DNA from: Bacteroidota bacterium
GTDB lineage: Bacteria > Bacteroidota > Ignavibacteria > Ignavibacteriales > Ignavibacteriaceae
Length of the DNA: 64,000 bases
Direction of reading: 5' to 3'
Assembly: GCA_021824565.1 (NCBI GenBank)
Contig: JAKAKL010000121.1
Coordinates: forward strand, 214,363 to 278,362
The notes beneath the pieces were generated by a model, which ran no database searches, was not told the origin of the DNA, and saw only the letters and a program-made list of their open reading frames with translations. Numbering within the stretch: the stretch's first letter is position 1; the number at the start of each line of letters is the position of its first letter. Below are positions 6,464 to 64,000 of this stretch, one piece after another. Made by a program: the position numbers and the translations under genes.

Positions 6464-7096
6464 ATGGACACAAAAAAAACTTTACAAAATTATTTAGACG
6501 AGTTATCATCAGGCTCGCCTACGCCGGGCGGCGGAAACGTGGCTGCTCTTTGCGGAACGCTGGCAAGCAGCCTCGGCATTATGGTCTGCAATTTAACAAT
6601 CGGCAAAAAAAAATATTTAGACTTTGAGGCTGAAGCTAATAGGATCAAAGAAAAATTAACTTCATTCAAAAATGATTTTATAGAATTCGCGCGGAAGGAC
6701 AACGAAGCTTTTGATAAAGTAATGGAAGCGTTCAAGCTTCCGAAGAATAATGAAGCGGAAATAAATTCGCGCAGCGAAAAAATTCAAAGCGCAACTTTGG
6801 AAGCGGCAATGGTGCCCGCGGAAGTTTTAAGAAAGTGCAATGAAGTTATTCCGTTAATAAAAATAATTTCTGAAAAAGGAAATCAAAATTCGCTTTCGGA
6901 TGCGGGAGTGGCAGCCTCATTAATTTCATCCTCAGCGGAAGGCGCTTACTTAAACGTCTTGATAAATTGCACAAGCCTTACAAACCAAATAACTGCGCGC
7001 GAGGTGCTTAAGACAAACGAAATTATTTACCGCGAAGTAAAAGAAAAATCTGCGGAAATTATATCGACAATAATTAAAAGGATGAGCAGCCAGTAA
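6464..7096 (+). CDS. fchA: Formimidoyl-THF cyclodeaminase / methenyl-THF cyclohydrolase family
   Basis: A 210-residue helical folate enzyme of the FTCD_C family. It shows the signature SGSPTPGGGNVAAL near residues 16-29, followed by helices with LASSLGIMVCNLTIG, and late in the protein SDAGVAASLI. It would convert formimino-THF to methenyl-THF plus ammonia, or act as methenyl-THF cyclohydrolase. It sits just downstream of the transferase gene, so the two halves that are fused in mammalian FTCD are here neighbouring genes, probably one transcript. The exact reaction (cyclodeaminase or cyclohydrolase) cannot be told from the sequence. Confidence 0.9.
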   Translation: MDTKKTLQNYLDELSSGSPTPGGGNVAALCGTLASSLGIMVCNLTIGKKKYLDFEAEANRIKEKLTSFKNDFIEFARKDNEAFDKVMEAFKLPKNNEAEINSRSEKIQSATLEAAMVPAEVLRKCNEVIPLIKIISEKGNQNSLSDAGVAASLISSSAEGAYLNVLINCTSLTNQITAREVLKTNEIIYREVKEKSAEIISTIIKRMSSQ

Positions 7097-7334
7097 ACTA
7101 TTACGATAAATTATTCCTTCCTTTGCAAAACCTTGCAATCTTTTTCTATTATTCTCTGTCAATAATTTTTATTATTTCGTACATTTGGACTTCAAAAACT
7201 AACGGCACTTAAAATTCTCGAACTTGAACTTAACCCATGCCATCTGTTATAGTTCAAGATCAAGTGTAAGTTTAAGTATTGAAATTGATAAAGCAGATTT
7301 TATTCAGTAATAATTGTAATTCATAGAGGCGAAG

Positions 7335-9017
7335 ATGAAAGAAAATTTAAATAAATACAGCCGAAGATTGACGCAAACGCGCTCGCAAGTCGGCTCACAG
7401 GCAATGCTGCACGGCATTGGTTTAACAGATGATGATTTTAAGAAAGCGCAGGTAGGCATTGCAAGTATGGGCTGGGAAGGAAATACCTGCAACATGCATT
7501 TAAATGATCTTGCAAAGGTGGCAAAGAAAGGAGTAAACGACAGCGGACTTGTAGGATTAATATTTCATACAATCGGTGTTAGCGACGGAATCGCTATGGG
7601 CACAGAAGGGATGAAATATTCTCTTCCCTCAAGAGATATAATTGCCGATTCAATCGAAACAGTAATGGGCGCACAATGGTATGATTCTCTTATTGCAATT
7701 CCAGGCTGTGATAAAAACATGCCTGGCTCCATAATGGCTATGGCGCGATTAAACAGACCAAGCATTATGATTTACGGCGGAACGATAAGAGCCGGTTTTT
7801 TTAAGGGAAAGAAATTAGATGTGGTTTCAGCTTTTGAAGCTTATGGTCAATATCTTTCAAAGGAATTTACAGTGACAGATCTAGAAAACGTACTGCATCA
7901 TGCATGCCCGGGCGCGGGAGCATGCGGAGGAATGTACACGGCAAACACAATGGCGTCTGCAATTGAAACTATGGGAATGAGCCTGCCATACAGTTCTTCA
8001 TGCCCGGCAAACAGTGATCAAAAAGTAAAAGAATGTTACGACGCAGGCAAAGCAATTCTAAAAATTATGGAACTTGATTTGAAACCGCGCGACATTATGA
8101 CTAAGAAGGCGTTCGAAAATGCAATCACCGTTGTAATAGCGCTGGGCGGCTCAACAAACGCCGCGCTTCACTTAATTGCCATGGCAAAAGCCGCAGGCGT
8201 AAAATTATCTTTAAAAGATTTCCAGGATATTTCCGACCGGACTCCATATCTTGCCGACTTGAAGCCGAGCGGGAAATATGTAATGGAAGATTTGTATGAA
8301 ATCGGCGGCGTTCCGGCTGTGCAGAAATTATTATTGAATGAAGGTCTGCTAGATGGAAATTGCATTACCGTTACGGGAAAAACTTTGGGTGAAAATATTG
8401 AAAGCCTTGAAGGATTGAAGGAAGGACAAAAAATTATTTTCCCATTAAGTAATCCGATTAAGAAAACCGGTCATCTTCAAATTCTTTACGGCAATCTTGC
8501 AGAAGAAGGAGCCGTTGCTAAAATTACCGGCAAGGAAGGATTAAAATTTTCAGGCCCGGCAAAAGTTTACAACTCTGAAGAAGAAACTTTGCGCGCAATT
8601 GAGAACAAAGAAATATCGCACGGCGATGTAATTGTAATTCGGTATGAGGGACCGAAAGGCGGACCGGGAATGCGCGAAATGCTTGAGGTAACCGCCGCAC
8701 TTATGGGCGCGGGTTTAGGCAAGAGCGTTGCGTTAATTACCGACGGAAGATTCTCAGGCGGAACGCACGGGTTCGTAGTCGGGCATATAACACCCGAAGC
8801 GCAGGTCGGCGGCAATCTTGCTCTTGTAGAAAACGGAGACGTAATAACTATTGACGCTGAGAAGAATATGTTAAATGTTGATATGGATTCTAAAACTTTA
8901 GATGAACGAAGGAAAAAATGGCAGCAGCCTAAATTTAAAGCTGACAGTGGAATATTATTTAAGTATATTAAGAATGTTTCTTCCGCTTCAGAAGGATGCG
9001 TTACAGATGAGTTCTAA
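7335..9017 (+). CDS. ilvD: Dihydroxy-acid dehydratase
   Basis: A 560-residue iron-sulphur dehydratase that converts 2,3-dihydroxy-isovalerate or -methylvalerate to 2-keto acids in branched-chain amino acid synthesis. Family marks visible are the cluster cysteines in GCDKNMPG (about 123) and the [13 protein letters not shown] block (about 195), the [10 protein letters not shown] stretch, and near the C-terminus [16 protein letters not shown]. Length is standard. It stands alone: no ilvB, ilvC, ilvE or leu genes lie within the window. Upstream 7097-7334 holds no gene, and I saw no attenuator-like leader peptide or T-box in it. Confidence 0.97.
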
Positions 9018-29284: not shown

Positions 29285-29530
29285 CCTTCGGGAAAAATAT
29301 TTATACCTGAAGAGAAAATCACTTTTCTGAAAGGAAAATCTATTTTGCCCGAAGGAAAAATCATTTTACCCAAAGGAAAATCATTTTTGCCCGAAGGAAA
29401 AACCGATTTGCCAAAGGAAAAACTGTTTTGCCCGAAGGAAAAACAGCTTTGCCCAAAGGAAAATCTATTTTGCCCAAAGGAAAAATCATTTTGCCCGAAG
29501 GAAAAGTTATTTTCCCTTTGAGAAAAGTGA
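29285..29530. repeat. Intergenic tandem array of 21-bp units (array 1)
   Basis: About twelve units lie between pta and the terminator at 29588. The unit core is TTGCCCGAAGGAAAA or TTGCCCAAAGGAAAA followed by a six-base variable segment. The GGA of successive units falls at 29291, 29333, 29354, 29375, 29396, 29416, 29437, 29458, 29479 and 29500, so the spacing is 21 bp except for one 20-bp step; the unit near 29312 is degenerate. Apparent open frames through it (heptapeptides like FPSGK) are a by-product of the period and have no start signals or partners. Confidence 0.9.
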
Positions 29531-46740: not shown

Positions 46741-47148
46741 CTCCAAATTCCGCTTTTCTTATTTGAAATACCGCTTTTCCCATTTGCAATAGTACTTTTA
46801 TAAATAACAAGAGTGCTTTTATTAATAACAATTGCGCTTTCATTAATAATAATACCGCACTTGTCAATAACAGTTGGGCTTTCATTAATAACAACTCCAG
46901 ACTTGTTAATAACAGTTGGGGTTTCATTAATAACAACTCCAGACTTGTTAATAACAGTTGCGCTTTCATTAATAACAACTCCAGACTTGTTAATAACAGT
47001 TGGGCTTTCATTAATAACAACTCTAGACTTATTAATAACGGTTGGGCTTTCATTAATAACAACTCTAGACTTGTTAATAACGGTTGGGCTTTCATTAATA
47101 ACAACTCTAGACTTGTTAATAACGGTTGGGCTTCCATTAATAACAACT
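46741..47148. repeat. Intergenic tandem array of 21-bp units with 42-bp higher-order repeat (array 2)
   Basis: About nineteen units between the propeller-like gene and the prolyl oligopeptidase gene. The conserved half is TTAATAACA; this element falls at exact 21-bp steps (46804, 46825, 46846, 46867, 46888 and on). The other half alternates between two versions (around GTTGGGCTTTCA and ACTCCAGACTTG), making a 42-bp unit. The first few units (46741-46800) are degenerate. Because 21 is a multiple of three, long open frames run through on both strands, but they lack start signals and are not genes. Confidence 0.92.
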
Positions 47149-47261
47149 CTGCCTTGGCAACTTACCGGTTAAATCTAATTTTAGAAAAATTCTCCTTGCC
47201 GTTTACCCAATCTTATTGTTATTATTATATACAAAAATTTTTAACTCATTTTAGGTCGATT

Positions 47262-54910: not shown

Positions 54911-55221
54911 AACTTCCTCACAAAATTGATTTATGGATTTAACCGCGGCATAATAATAGAGATATTCCATTAATAATTCAATACTCAATAAAGATTCGGC
55001 AGGTAAAATTTCTCTATAATAAATTTTTATTGAAGTTGAAATAAAATTCTTAGTGAAAACGTTAGCGCTAAGAACAAAATAGCGGCTATGCTCTTAGCGC
55101 TCTGCATGTTTAGCCGTGTATTTGCTTCCGGCGAGTTAATAGAAACATACTAAAAAATTCAAAGCGCATGATTGATATTATCGGCTTTAATATTTAAGTT
55201 AGACAAAAAGGAAAGGGACAA
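54911..55221. other. Intergenic region with an inverted repeat
   Basis: The 311 bp separating DUF2911 from the paralogue pair are AT-rich. A perfect 10-bp inverted repeat (55064-55073 with 55092-55101) is present. Its loop also holds AGCGGCTATG. I saw no gene. Confidence 0.5.
55064..55101. repeat. Inverted repeat upstream of the unknown paralogue pair
   Basis: AGCGCTAAGA at 55064-55073 is mirrored by TCTTAGCGCT at 55092-55101, with an 18-bp spacer. No U-run follows, so it is not a typical terminator; a regulator-binding site or mRNA hairpin is possible. It lies about 120 bp before the first paralogue. Confidence 0.6.
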
Positions 55222-56277
55222 ATGTATTTAGACATTTTAAATTCGGAAAATTCAAAGACCGGTGTTGAAACCGAGGCAAACCTAATTAGGGCTGCGCTTC
55301 TTATGTCCGACAAGATAACAGTTGCGGGCAAGTGCTCCTTCTTCCTATATCTCAAAGAATATTTGGATAAGACTGACTTAGAACATAAAAAGGAACTTCT
55401 TATTGACAACGTAAAAAGTCTTTACAAAAAGCATCCCAAGTTAGTTAATTATTACTGCCGGACAATTGACCTATACACATCTATGATGAAGAAAAAAAGC
55501 AAAAGCAACGACGCCACTCTTGCTATGATGAAGTTGAAGCCTTACCTGGACCACTTTCAAAATGATATTATTGAGTATTATAACAAAATCGCCGGCGCTT
55601 ATAAAATTACTGACTTAGTGCGGTTTGCCGACTGTGAGCGAAATAATATTACAATATTCGTAAAGTCTGATACTTCTTCCAAAGCAAATATTTTTTTAAT
55701 TAAAACCATTACAAAAAATATTGACGACATTTTAATCCTCGACTCGAACGTATTCGGCATGGCAAGTTATAAGGAGTTAAACGATCATGATGACGAATTT
55801 GTCGGATTTTTCCAAAATACCTCCGATCCGATTTTCGTATGGAAGCCCATGTTGAAGATGAAAGTGTTACGTAACCTCGATTACGAACACCTCAAGACAA
55901 TACGAAATAATTATATTTCCGTTACAGAGCCGTTCCGCAATGAGCTTCTACACGTCAGTGAAACTTTAAGAAAAATATTTTTTTCTGAAGAAAATATACA
56001 GGCGCTTAAAGAGCATTGCGATAACGTGTGCCGGCTTGCTGTCGAGTTCGAGAAGGTCGAAATAGAAAATGCGCTCATTGAAAACTTAATAAAAGCAGGC
56101 ACCGAATCGAAGCAATTAAAGATAAACTTTGCCGTAACAAGCCTTGACAATATGATTCGGATGCTTGAGCGAATTGGAATAATTACCGAAAAGGAAAGAA
56201 TGTATTCATGCTGGGAGCTTAGTCAAAATATAAATCTGTCTATGAGCGTACCGTTCCTTATTGCGGAGGAAGAATAA
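55222..56277 (+). CDS. Unknown protein, tandem paralogue A (351 residues)
   Basis: A 351-residue soluble protein I do not recognise. It opens MYLDILNSENSKTG, and its closest visible relative is the next gene, also 351 residues. Shared parts are the first 40 residues (LIRAALLMSDKITVAGKCS here), a central ILDSNVFGMASYKELN stretch that follows a run ending in NIDDI, and the C-terminal quarter (NFAVTSLDNMIRMLERIGIITEKE). Predicted mainly helical with a beta patch in the middle. No signal peptide, membrane helix or known catalytic motif. Ribosome site AAAGGAAAGGGAC precedes the ATG. Possibly part of a two-gene system with its paralogue. Confidence 0.8.
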   Translation: MYLDILNSENSKTGVETEANLIRAALLMSDKITVAGKCSFFLYLKEYLDKTDLEHKKELLIDNVKSLYKKHPKLVNYYCRTIDLYTSMMKKKSKSNDATLAMMKLKPYLDHFQNDIIEYYNKIAGAYKITDLVRFADCERNNITIFVKSDTSSKANIFLIKTITKNIDDILILDSNVFGMASYKELNDHDDEFVGFFQNTSDPIFVWKPMLKMKVLRNLDYEHLKTIRNNYISVTEPFRNELLHVSETLRKIFFSEENIQALKEHCDNVCRLAVEFEKVEIENALIENLIKAGTESKQLKINFAVTSLDNMIRMLERIGIITEKERMYSCWELSQNINLSMSVPFLIAEEE

Positions 56278-56350
56278 TTCTCAAAACAAAACCCAAAGCG
56301 AATAATCAAATGTTTTAAAATTTAAATTAATCAAATATGAAGAGGGACAA

Positions 56351-57406
56351 ATGTATTTAGATATTTTAAATTCGTATGACAGCAAGATAGAAATTCAGTC
56401 TGAAGGAAATCTTATCCGCGCTTCCCTTTTGATAGCGGATGGATTAATTGTAGCGGGCAGAAGTTCATACCCCCTCTGCATAAGAGAATTTATGAAAGAA
56501 GCGAGACAAAAAACAAAGATAGAATTTCTTAAAAGAAGATTAGAACAATATTACGAAGATGATCCGCAAATGCTTCAAAACTTCTGCAAAGCCATAGATG
56601 ATTATACCGTTCTTTCGAGAAAAAGAGGAAAGAATAAACGAGAGGTTTTGATAGAAATTATATCCAAGAAATTTATTAACGGTATCGAAAGAATCGTTGT
56701 TCAAGACATAGAACTAAGGGCTGAGAATGACGGTATAAAAGATATAATGCCATTTGCTCCATGCAGAAATAATGTAATAAACGTACAACACATGAATGAT
56801 AAAAATCCGCAGTATAATATTAATCTTGCATCGGATCTGCTTATTTCTAAAGAAGATTACCTTATCTTCGATGCAAACGCGTTTGACTCGGCAAAACATT
56901 CAGAGTTGAATAATGCGGCGAATGTTCCGGATAATATGTTCTGCGGTACTTCTTCGCCGTTCTTTTTATGGGAGGAAATGTTTAGTATGAATTTACTCAT
57001 GAACTTAACCCCGGAACATTTCAAGCTGATAAGGGAAAACTTCCTTGCAGGCACAATTGCTTTGCGCAGCGCTCTTCTTAATGCAAAGATCGTTCTATTG
57101 AATACTGCTTTTTCAAACTCGAACCGGGATGTTTTTAACGATCAGCTCGAGAAAATAAAATTGGAAGCAGCCGAATTTGAAAAGATAGAAAAGGGAAATG
57201 AGCTCATAAATAAATTGACAGCCGCAGGCATTCCTTCTAAGAAAATGAAAATTATACTCGCCGTAACAAGCTATAGAAATTTAATTAATATGCTTAAGGA
57301 AATGTGCATAATAACCGAGCGCGAGGACTTATACGTGCAGAAAAAGATTTCCAATCATTTCGATCTGTCAACGAGCATACCATTCTTCATTCTTAAAGAA
57401 GTATAA
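56351..57406 (+). CDS. Unknown protein, tandem paralogue B (351 residues)
   Basis: A second 351-residue member of the unknown family, 73 bp after the first. It opens MYLDILNSYDSKIE and shares LIRASLLIADGLIVAGRSS, YLIFDANAFDSAKHSELN and the C-terminal ILAVTSYRNLINMLKEMCIITERE with its neighbour, but elsewhere the two are clearly diverged, so the duplication is not recent. The start region DNA (GGGACAAATGTATTTAGA) is almost identical in both. The region about 80-130 is more basic than in copy A. No motif suggests an enzymatic role. Confidence 0.8.
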   Translation: MYLDILNSYDSKIEIQSEGNLIRASLLIADGLIVAGRSSYPLCIREFMKEARQKTKIEFLKRRLEQYYEDDPQMLQNFCKAIDDYTVLSRKRGKNKREVLIEIISKKFINGIERIVVQDIELRAENDGIKDIMPFAPCRNNVINVQHMNDKNPQYNINLASDLLISKEDYLIFDANAFDSAKHSELNNAANVPDNMFCGTSSPFFLWEEMFSMNLLMNLTPEHFKLIRENFLAGTIALRSALLNAKIVLLNTAFSNSNRDVFNDQLEKIKLEAAEFEKIEKGNELINKLTAAGIPSKKMKIILAVTSYRNLINMLKEMCIITEREDLYVQKKISNHFDLSTSIPFFILKEV

Positions 57407-61232: not shown

Positions 61233-61469
61233 ATGAACACAAGAAAAATATTATCCGGCGGAAGAGTTACTATACCGGCAGGACTGAGAAAAAAGTATGG
61301 CATTAAAGCCGGCACTAAAATATTTTTTAAAGAAGAAAAGGACGGAATAATATTATATCCGGTAACCGCTAAAACAATTAAAGACGGAATTGGTTTCTTG
61401 AAGCATGATAAAGGGATGCTGAAGTCTTTGATGGAGGAGAAGAAGAGGGAGAGGGAGAGGGAACTTTAA
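61233..61469 (+). CDS. AbrB/SpoVT-type DNA-binding protein (copy 1)
   Basis: A 78-residue protein with a swapped-hairpin AbrB domain: ILSGGRVTIPAGLRKKYGIKAGTKI (read in parts) at about 6-30. The C-terminal tail is highly charged (EEKKREREREL). Such proteins are usually antitoxins of VapC-type pairs, with the toxin gene overlapping their end. Here no PIN-domain gene follows; instead the convergent MNT gene overlaps by four bases. It is a near copy of the gene at 62607 and of a broken copy at 62249. Probably an orphan antitoxin or an autoregulator. Confidence 0.85.
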   Translation: MNTRKILSGGRVTIPAGLRKKYGIKAGTKIFFKEEKDGIILYPVTAKTIKDGIGFLKHDKGMLKSLMEEKKREREREL

Positions 61470-61786
61470 ATTGTAATCTGAATACCTTCCTGTCTTACTA
61501 TCTCAATGATCGGTGAGACGTCATCTTCAATAAATCTCTTTTCGCCTATTGCTAAAGGTTCAATCCTGTTTTCTGTTCTTATTTTAGAAAGCCAAATAGC
61601 GGGCATATATTTATCTGTTTCGGAATCAAAGAGAGGTGATACAAGCATAAGGTCTATGTCGCTGTCAGGCGATGCAGTACCGTTTGCCTGACTGCCGTAA
61701 AGGAATGCCTTTTTTATCTCTATTCCTTTAGCGGCTAACTCATCTAGATATTCCTTAACTATCTTTATAACTTTTGCGTTAACCAT
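61466..61786 (-). CDS. MNT-type nucleotidyltransferase (MntA-like antitoxin)
   Basis: A 106-residue minimal nucleotidyltransferase with the signature GS-x10-D-x-D in GSQANGTASPDSDIDLML (about 31-48). In HEPN/MNT pairs this enzyme adds AMP groups to the HEPN ribonuclease and silences it. It is encoded directly after, and overlapping the end of, the frameshifted HEPN gene. A third acidic residue, expected near 80 for full catalysis, is plausible in FIEDD but not certain. Its stop overlaps the AbrB gene on the other strand. Confidence 0.88.
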   Translation of the reverse strand: MVNAKVIKIVKEYLDELAAKGIEIKKAFLYGSQANGTASPDSDIDLMLVSPLFDSETDKYMPAIWLSKIRTENRIEPLAIGEKRFIEDDVSPIIEIVRQEGIQITI

Positions 61787-62141: not shown

Positions 62142-62248
62142 AATAGATAGAAAACTTTAAATCATGTTGGGAGAATTTAATCATAATAATCATAATAATA
62201 AATGAATACCTCTAATTATAGGTATTTAAACAGAAGAAAATTATTTTT

Positions 62249-62318
62249 ATGAACACAAGAAAAGTATTATCCGGAGGAAGAATAACAATACCGCGTCGCT
62301 GCGGAAGAAATACAATTT
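62249..62318 (+). pseudogene. Broken third AbrB copy
   Basis: It begins MNTRKVLSGGRITIP as in the two intact AbrB genes, then the frame slips after CCGCGTCG. The next frame still reads LRKKYNL, the sequence that follows IPA-x in the intact copies, after which similarity ends. The C-terminal half is gone. It sits between the HEPN gene and the small minus-strand frame at 62330. Confidence 0.8.
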
Positions 62319-62606: not shown

Positions 62607-62837
62607 ATGAACATAAGAAAAATATTATCCGGCGGCAGAGTAACCATACCCGCAGAGCTAAGAAAGAAGTACGACATTAAAGCCGGTACTAAGATATTTT
62701 TTAAAGTAGAGAAAGACGGAATTGTACTATATCCAGTAACCTCGAAAACAATTAAAGACGGAATTGGTTTCTTTAAGCCTGATAAACAGATGCTGAAATC
62801 GCTGATGAAGGAGAAGAAGTTTGAAAGAGAATTGTAG
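62607..62837 (+). CDS. AbrB/SpoVT-type DNA-binding protein (copy 2)
   Basis: A 76-residue protein nearly the same as the one at 61233 (differences such as AEL for AGL, VEKDGIV for EEKDGII and KPDKQ for KHDKG). A ribosome site AAAGGAA (62594-62600) precedes ATG. The AbrB fold is at about 5-32 with the GGRVTIPAELRKKYDIKAG element. No toxin gene follows: 62838-62899 is empty and the next gene is the C-protein. It is likely an orphan, or acts on sites shared with copy 1. Confidence 0.85.
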   Translation: MNIRKILSGGRVTIPAELRKKYDIKAGTKIFFKVEKDGIVLYPVTSKTIKDGIGFFKPDKQMLKSLMKEKKFEREL

Positions 62838-62952: not shown

Positions 62953-63186
62953 ATGGATATACAACAAAAGATTGGCAAAAGGATTCGCGAATTGCGTAAG
63001 GAAAAAGGCTTATCTCAGGAAGCTTTTGCTGATCTTGCAAGGATAGATAGAACATATGTGAATAGCGTAGAAAACGGGAAAAGAAATATATCCTTAAAGA
63101 ACATTGAAAAGATAGCAAACGCTTTTAATATATCTATTTCTAATTTTTTCTATGATGATATTTTTTCTGATAGTAAGAAAAAATGA
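62953..63186 (+). CDS. Restriction-modification controller (C) protein, XRE family
   Basis: A 77-residue single-domain helix-turn-helix protein: IGKRIRELRKEKGLSQEAFA, then DLARIDRTYVNSVENGKRN, the recognition-helix element (DRTY-x-S-x-EN-x-x-RN) shared with C.Esp1396I and C.AhdI controllers. C proteins bind C-boxes to delay restriction enzyme expression until DNA is methylated. Here a matching C-box lies just upstream and a C5-methyltransferase gene starts 18 bp downstream, so I assign the role with good confidence. The restriction enzyme gene is probably outside the window. Confidence 0.9.
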   Translation: MDIQQKIGKRIRELRKEKGLSQEAFADLARIDRTYVNSVENGKRNISLKNIEKIANAFNISISNFFYDDIFSDSKKK

Positions 63187-63204
63187 TTTTTATTTATTCA
63201 ATTA

Positions 63205-64000
63205 ATGGAAACAAAACTTACCTTTATTGACCTCTTTGCAGGAGCAGGTGGTTTATCAGAAGGATTTATACGCACCGGATTTAAACCAATTGCATTCGTG
63301 GAAAAAGATAGTAATGCATGTTTTACAATTAAAACTAGATTAGCTTACTATCATTTAAAAAATGATAAAGGATTTGAGTCTTACATCAATTATCTTAACC
63401 AAACTATTTCCCGCGATGAATTATATAGTGAAGTACCGGAAAAAACGCTAAGCTCTGTTATTAATAAAGAAATAGGCTCAAGAACAATAAAAACAATTTT
63501 TAATAAGATTGATAAATTAAATGGGAAAAATAAAGTCGACCTAATCATTGGGGGTCCTCCCTGTCAGGCATATTCATTAAGCGGAAGAGCGGCTGACGAA
63601 AATGGTATGAAAAGAGATCATAGAAATTTTCTATATAAATATTATGGTAAGTTTCTTTCTAGATATTCCCCGAAGATATTTTTATTTGAAAATGTTCCGG
63701 GATTATATACAGCTAATAACGGGAAATATTACAAAAATATGCTCTCATATTTTGACAGGCTTGGTTATAATGTCAAAGACGAAATTCAAGATGCTGCCGA
63801 CTTTGGTGTTGTTCAAAGAAGAAAGAGAGTAATTATTGTTGGTTGGAAAAAGGATTTAGATTTTCTATACCCGGACTTCGATAAAATCGAACACGAGTGG
63901 ACAATAAAAGATTTATTTGTTGATCTGCCTTTATTAAAATCGGGTGACATAGTTCCGGTTGCCAAATATAAAGGTGAAATGAATGAGTATTTAAAAAGAT
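63205..64000 (+). CDS. DNA (cytosine-5-)-methyltransferase, partial (cut by window edge)
   Basis: The first 265 codons of a C5-methyltransferase. Motif I is FAGAGGLSEGF (about 11-21), motif IV with the catalytic Cys is GGPPCQAYSLSGR (about 115-127), motif VI FENVPG (about 161-166) and motif VIII QRRKRVIIVGW (about 203-213). The target recognition domain and motifs IX and X lie beyond the edge. A long insertion between motifs III and IV (about 35-110) is present. It follows the C-protein gene by 18 bp and should protect the host's sites in a type II system; the recognition sequence is not deducible here. Confidence 0.93.
   Translation, partial: METKLTFIDLFAGAGGLSEGFIRTGFKPIAFVEKDSNACFTIKTRLAYYHLKNDKGFESYINYLNQTISRDELYSEVPEKTLSSVINKEIGSRTIKTIFNKIDKLNGKNKVDLIIGGPPCQAYSLSGRAADENGMKRDHRNFLYKYYGKFLSRYSPKIFLFENVPGLYTANNGKYYKNMLSYFDRLGYNVKDEIQDAADFGVVQRRKRVIIVGWKKDLDFLYPDFDKIEHEWTIKDLFVDLPLLKSGDIVPVAKYKGEMNEYLKR

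Follow-up and report, generated by a model that had tools for sequence, protein, structure and literature searches.

Two neighboring genes lie in the same direction in a 64,000-nucleotide stretch of DNA from a Bacteroidota bacterium of the family Ignavibacteriaceae (the window), and encode proteins of equal length that resemble each other. What kind of protein do they encode, and is the pairing itself the functional unit? The original prediction proposed a system of paired subunits, perhaps in stress or defense. We have analyzed the divergence of the pair, its relatives in other genomes, and the genes beside which it and its relatives are found.

Results

The tandem pair is an old duplication

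The two genes, termed XA and XB (Table 1), are complete open reading frames with ATG starts, 351 codons each and 73 bp between them, exactly as the original prediction described them, and each is preceded by a purine-rich ribosome site ending GGGACAAATG, which agrees with its claim of good ribosome sites. Alignment of the two proteins spans 350 residues and needs no gap (35% identity, 57% similarity, E = 2e-70), and their global score lies 34 s.d. above those of shuffled sequences. Identity peaks at the two ends, over the first 37 and the last ~70 residues. Third codon positions are 63% different, compared with 37% for second positions, and synonymous change is saturated (the NG86 dS is not computable). 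The saturation, taken with the contrast between third and second positions, indicates that the duplication is old and that both frames have been constrained and kept. The long retention of both copies that had been suggested is thus borne out by synonymous saturation in frames that are still intact.

Table 1. Positions in the window of the XA and XB genes and associated features
Feature	Positions	Strand	Basis
XA, 351-aa member of the X family (our name)	55222..56277	+	ORF, alignment and profile searches
XB, second 351-aa X protein (35% identity with XA)	56351..57406	+	ORF and alignment
Ribosome-binding site of XA, GGAAAGGGA	55210..55218	+	Read directly
Ribosome-binding site of XB, AAGAGGGA, inside the 73-bp intergenic gap	56340..56347	+	Read directly
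Imperfect inverted repeat upstream of XA, 13-nt arms 55064-55076 / 55089-55101, 92% complementary	55064..55101		

XA and XB match no known family

No family in the Pfam, NCBIfam or PADLOC profiles reached significance with XA or XB. Among the defense profiles of PADLOC-DB 2.0.0 the best value for XA was 0.032 (WYL, chance level), and the other proteins gave no match; nor did the defense or toxin-antitoxin libraries match X or the ribonuclease described below. A search of the PDB with the X profile returned DcpS as the best entry, at a chance-level E of 0.24. The claim that the proteins have no known domain therefore stands across Pfam, NCBIfam, PADLOC and the PDB, where no significant relative was found. 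A PHROG family of unknown function (phrog_8539) weakly matches XB over 41 residues (6.6e-4), a match that is absent from the paralog. Weak HTH-like matches at residues 299-329 of XA, far below significance, hint at a C-terminal winged helix. Structure prediction from the two-sequence alignment failed, with pLDDT values of 37 and 36 for XA and XB.

X is a rare family

The source genome (G000) comprises 4.6 Mb in 148 contigs. A third paralog is encoded on a different contig from the window pair (G000:C83:34118-35170; E 3.7e-14), with an identity of about 21-22%. A profile built from these three copies found a fourth member (E 8.4e-24, 18-21% identity) in the genome G242, which belongs to the same class but to a different family. 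The four proteins are similar over their full length, with genome-search E values of 4.7e-60 and 3.7e-14 in addition to the profile value, and all six pairwise scores are at least 10 s.d. above shuffles. In a four-taxon tree XA and XB are placed together, apart from the other two copies, with a bootstrap value of 87.

No further copy was found in samples of 146 relatives, 391 genomes of the class, 80 relatives of G242 and 395 genomes of the phylum, which overlap one another, and none of the genus's 12 other genomes carries X. Searches of viral contigs, plasmids and phages for X and for the ribonuclease found no relative, and neither did the genome_contigs scans with X and with the ribonuclease. 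Two candidates were rejected as chance matches: a tblastn match in a viral contig (L001; 5e-4 over 75 residues) falls inside a phage gene of another kind, and the gene matched in G591 (E 3.2e-4) looks like a glycosyltransferase. In the genomes sampled, the family is rare and patchy.

The other two X genes directly precede a predicted ribonuclease gene

What stands beside the single X genes? On C83, the X gene overlaps by 17 bp a downstream gene in the same direction, encoding a 489-aa protein with a C-terminal PF11977 (RNase_Zc3h12a) domain (E 1.2e-16). In G242, the X gene ends 14 bp before a co-directional gene encoding an ortholog of 472 aa, again with PF11977 at its C terminus (E 4.6e-15). 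Both lie well above the gathering cut-off of the family (61.2 and 56.1 bits, compared with 23). The acidic motifs of the NYN domain, IDxSN, ADxFIxE and SNDTFxDW, are intact in both proteins, and the profile aligns with the solved structures of ZC3H12C and ZC3H12B across IDxSN, ADxFIxE and SNDxFxD. The N-terminal part of the RNase contains about ten units of 14 residues, of the form GFxxxxxFYxAxxx, and we refer to the protein as the repeat-NYN RNase. X and the full-length repeat-NYN RNase co-occur in these same two genomes only, as judged by profile searches of the 391 class and 395 phylum genomes.

The two partners have diverged to very different extents. Between C83 and G242 the RNases are 48% identical, rising to 59% in the NYN domain, whereas the adjoining X proteins are 17% identical. 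The adjacency of X and an RNase expected of a type II toxin-antitoxin system holds at both loci. No evident mobile element surrounds either of them. A MazEF-like gene pair, judged by eye, is located ~2.3 kb beyond the operon of G242 (L009 10982-11565).

Two further NYN matches were set aside. One, in G125 (9.9e-4), is interrupted by an in-frame stop and falls within a different gene, and is attributed to chance. The other, in G508 (6.7e-6), belongs to an NYN protein that is built differently and is not accompanied by X. This coiled-coil protein (6928-8172), which carries its NYN domain at the C terminus, is encoded among unknown genes on L017 (1657-8172). The array also holds an HTH-GTPase protein and an integrase-like gene, and is a candidate accessory island.

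The window pair has no adjacent ribonuclease

The arrangement at the window site is different. Neither XA nor XB matches the PF11977 profile, tblastn revealed no trace of an NYN domain in the window, and neither an RNase gene nor any other toxin candidate lies adjacent to the pair. A single PF11977 protein above the cut-off is encoded in the whole genome, the one on C83. The original prediction had held that relatives carrying only one copy would count against its system of paired subunits, and this is what both C83 and G242 present: a single X gene followed by an NYN-RNase gene. Pairing of X is thus local to the window site and not a conserved arrangement.

Upstream of the pair is a divergent gene that we take to be DUF2911-like, and downstream a convergent gene of 1092 aa, presumably a tricorn-like protease. 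The tricorn ortholog in G004 has different neighbors, as do, in sister genomes, orthologs of the second flanking gene, and on neither side of the pair is synteny with the sister genomes preserved. The flanks therefore form no conserved unit and the site is fluid, so that no clean empty site could be demonstrated. The inverted repeat noted upstream in the original prediction is present, in imperfect form. It has no second occurrence in the window, and the region before the C83 copy contains no inverted repeat of similar kind, so that nothing ties it to XA and XB; it may belong to either divergent gene.

That accessory DNA lies nearby was a fair description. At 61.2-64 kb, beyond the tricorn-like protease gene as seen from the pair, there are AbrB-like repeats and genes for a nucleotidyltransferase, an HTH protein and a DNA cytosine methyltransferase. 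Two small AbrB-like genes share 84% identity over 225 nt and flank a third, broken copy (61233-61469, 62242-62292, 62607-62837), and the adjacent nucleotidyltransferase gene (61466-61786) matches the PADLOC candidate PDC-S09 (2.9e-12). An HTH controller-like gene and then the methyltransferase gene, which runs off the window, occupy 62953-63999, possibly the beginning of a restriction-modification or DISARM-like locus; the best PADLOC match of the methyltransferase is DrmMII (8.8e-95). Elsewhere, the window contains tandem arrays at 29291-29513 (21-nt period) and 46822-47149 (42-nt period), the latter with 7.8 copies, 93% matches and open frames on both strands.

Discussion

The only two other members of the X family that were found are each encoded directly before a predicted RNase, and the XA/XB pair therefore probably derives, minus the enzyme, from a two-gene module built on an RNase. 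The explanation that we tentatively prefer, holding it slightly less probable than even, is that X is a rare, fast-evolving partner of the repeat-NYN RNase, typically encoded in an operon of X then RNase, and that XA and XB are a duplicated pair lacking an effector. From just two operons we infer that X acts on the RNase as a regulator, sensor or inhibitor. X changes much faster than the RNase (17% against 48% identity), as a sensor or inhibitor would be expected to do, although this could instead reflect weak constraint. X would bind the repeat region of the RNase, keeping it inactive or steering it to a target RNA; a trigger such as infection or stress would alter X, and the freed RNase would then cut RNA. 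XA and XB might provide the genome's one RNase, in trans, with a further inhibitor or sensor; alternatively, they might have been re-used as a heteromer with a role of its own. Speaking against the explanation are the small number of operons, the lack of any defense or toxin-antitoxin library match for X or the RNase, and the lack of an evident mobile element at C83 and G242. An effector-less pair could also have any other function.

A role in stress or defense is plausible but unproven. The RNase partner and the faster divergence of X speak for it indirectly, but there is no match in the defense libraries. It is rather unlikely, in our estimation, that X and the repeat-NYN RNase constitute an undescribed immunity or toxin-antitoxin module, in which a fast-evolving X sensor or inhibitor of ~355 aa controls the RNase via the 14-residue repeats, with the window pair as a natural effector-less heteromer that tunes the RNase in trans.

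Could X serve the cell in a more ordinary way? It might be a subunit that binds RNA or serves as an adaptor, in the manner of RNase substrate adaptors, for a nuclease processing RNA in housekeeping or under stress, with no role in defense, the window pair being a specialized duplication that selects substrates. The operon with an NYN RNase and the conservation of the RNase itself (59% in the NYN domain) are consistent with such an adaptor, as is the view that NYN proteins can trim RNA rather than act as toxins: a crRNA-trimming role has been proposed for the CRISPR-associated NYN protein of Bacteroides fragilis (PMC11346440). Yet a presence in two of the 391 class genomes, and in none of the 12 other congeneric genomes, is unlike a housekeeping function, and X diverges far faster than the nuclease; we consider an adaptor role unlikely.

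Two further explanations concern the pair alone. XA and XB might be a self-contained heteromer of two subunits with its own activity, independent of any RNase. They are in tandem and co-directional, 73 bp apart, both intact after synonymous saturation and with no RNase nearby, but the other two members are single copies beside an RNase and no other pair was found, leaving this a poor prospect. Alternatively, the pair could be the decaying remnant of an X-RNase operon that has lost its effector, in keeping with the missing RNase and the synteny broken on both sides. Decay is hard to reconcile, however, with full-length frames that align without gaps over 350 residues and retain good ribosome sites despite saturated synonymous divergence, or with a window containing no NYN remnant, and we regard it as very improbable.

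How does the X-NYN arrangement compare with known systems? The CRISPR-associated NYN ribonuclease (PMC11346440) is likewise bacterial and shares an operon with partner genes; here, however, the partner is X and not a Cmr complex, and no CRISPR genes were noticed in the open reading frames around either X-NYN operon. Type II toxin-antitoxin systems of VapBC type, with a PIN-like RNase, similarly have two adjacent co-directional genes, and the C83 and G242 loci also combine an RNase of the PIN-fold superfamily with a fast-diverging partner. But X, at ~355 aa, is not a small DNA-binding antitoxin, the RNases contain repeats and are 472-489 aa long, and no toxin accompanies the window pair. In domain, the RNase partners resemble the Zc3h12a/Regnase-like NYN ribonucleases (PF11977; PDB 7ndi, 6sjd), whose domain is found in both partner genes with its acidic motifs intact. 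XA and XB are not themselves members, and the bacterial partners differ in having ~ten 14-residue repeats before the domain and in being encoded with X.

An RNase with a co-encoded partner is of a known kind, while the X family and the X-NYN module are without description in the libraries and literature searched. In animals, Regnase-like NYN RNases regulate immunity, and to our knowledge little is known of the partners and triggers of the bacterial ones. If our explanation is correct, a repeat-rich Regnase-like RNase together with a partner that changes rapidly would make up a new two-gene RNase system open to experimental test, and the effector-less XA and XB would provide a natural test of whether the X partner works in trans.
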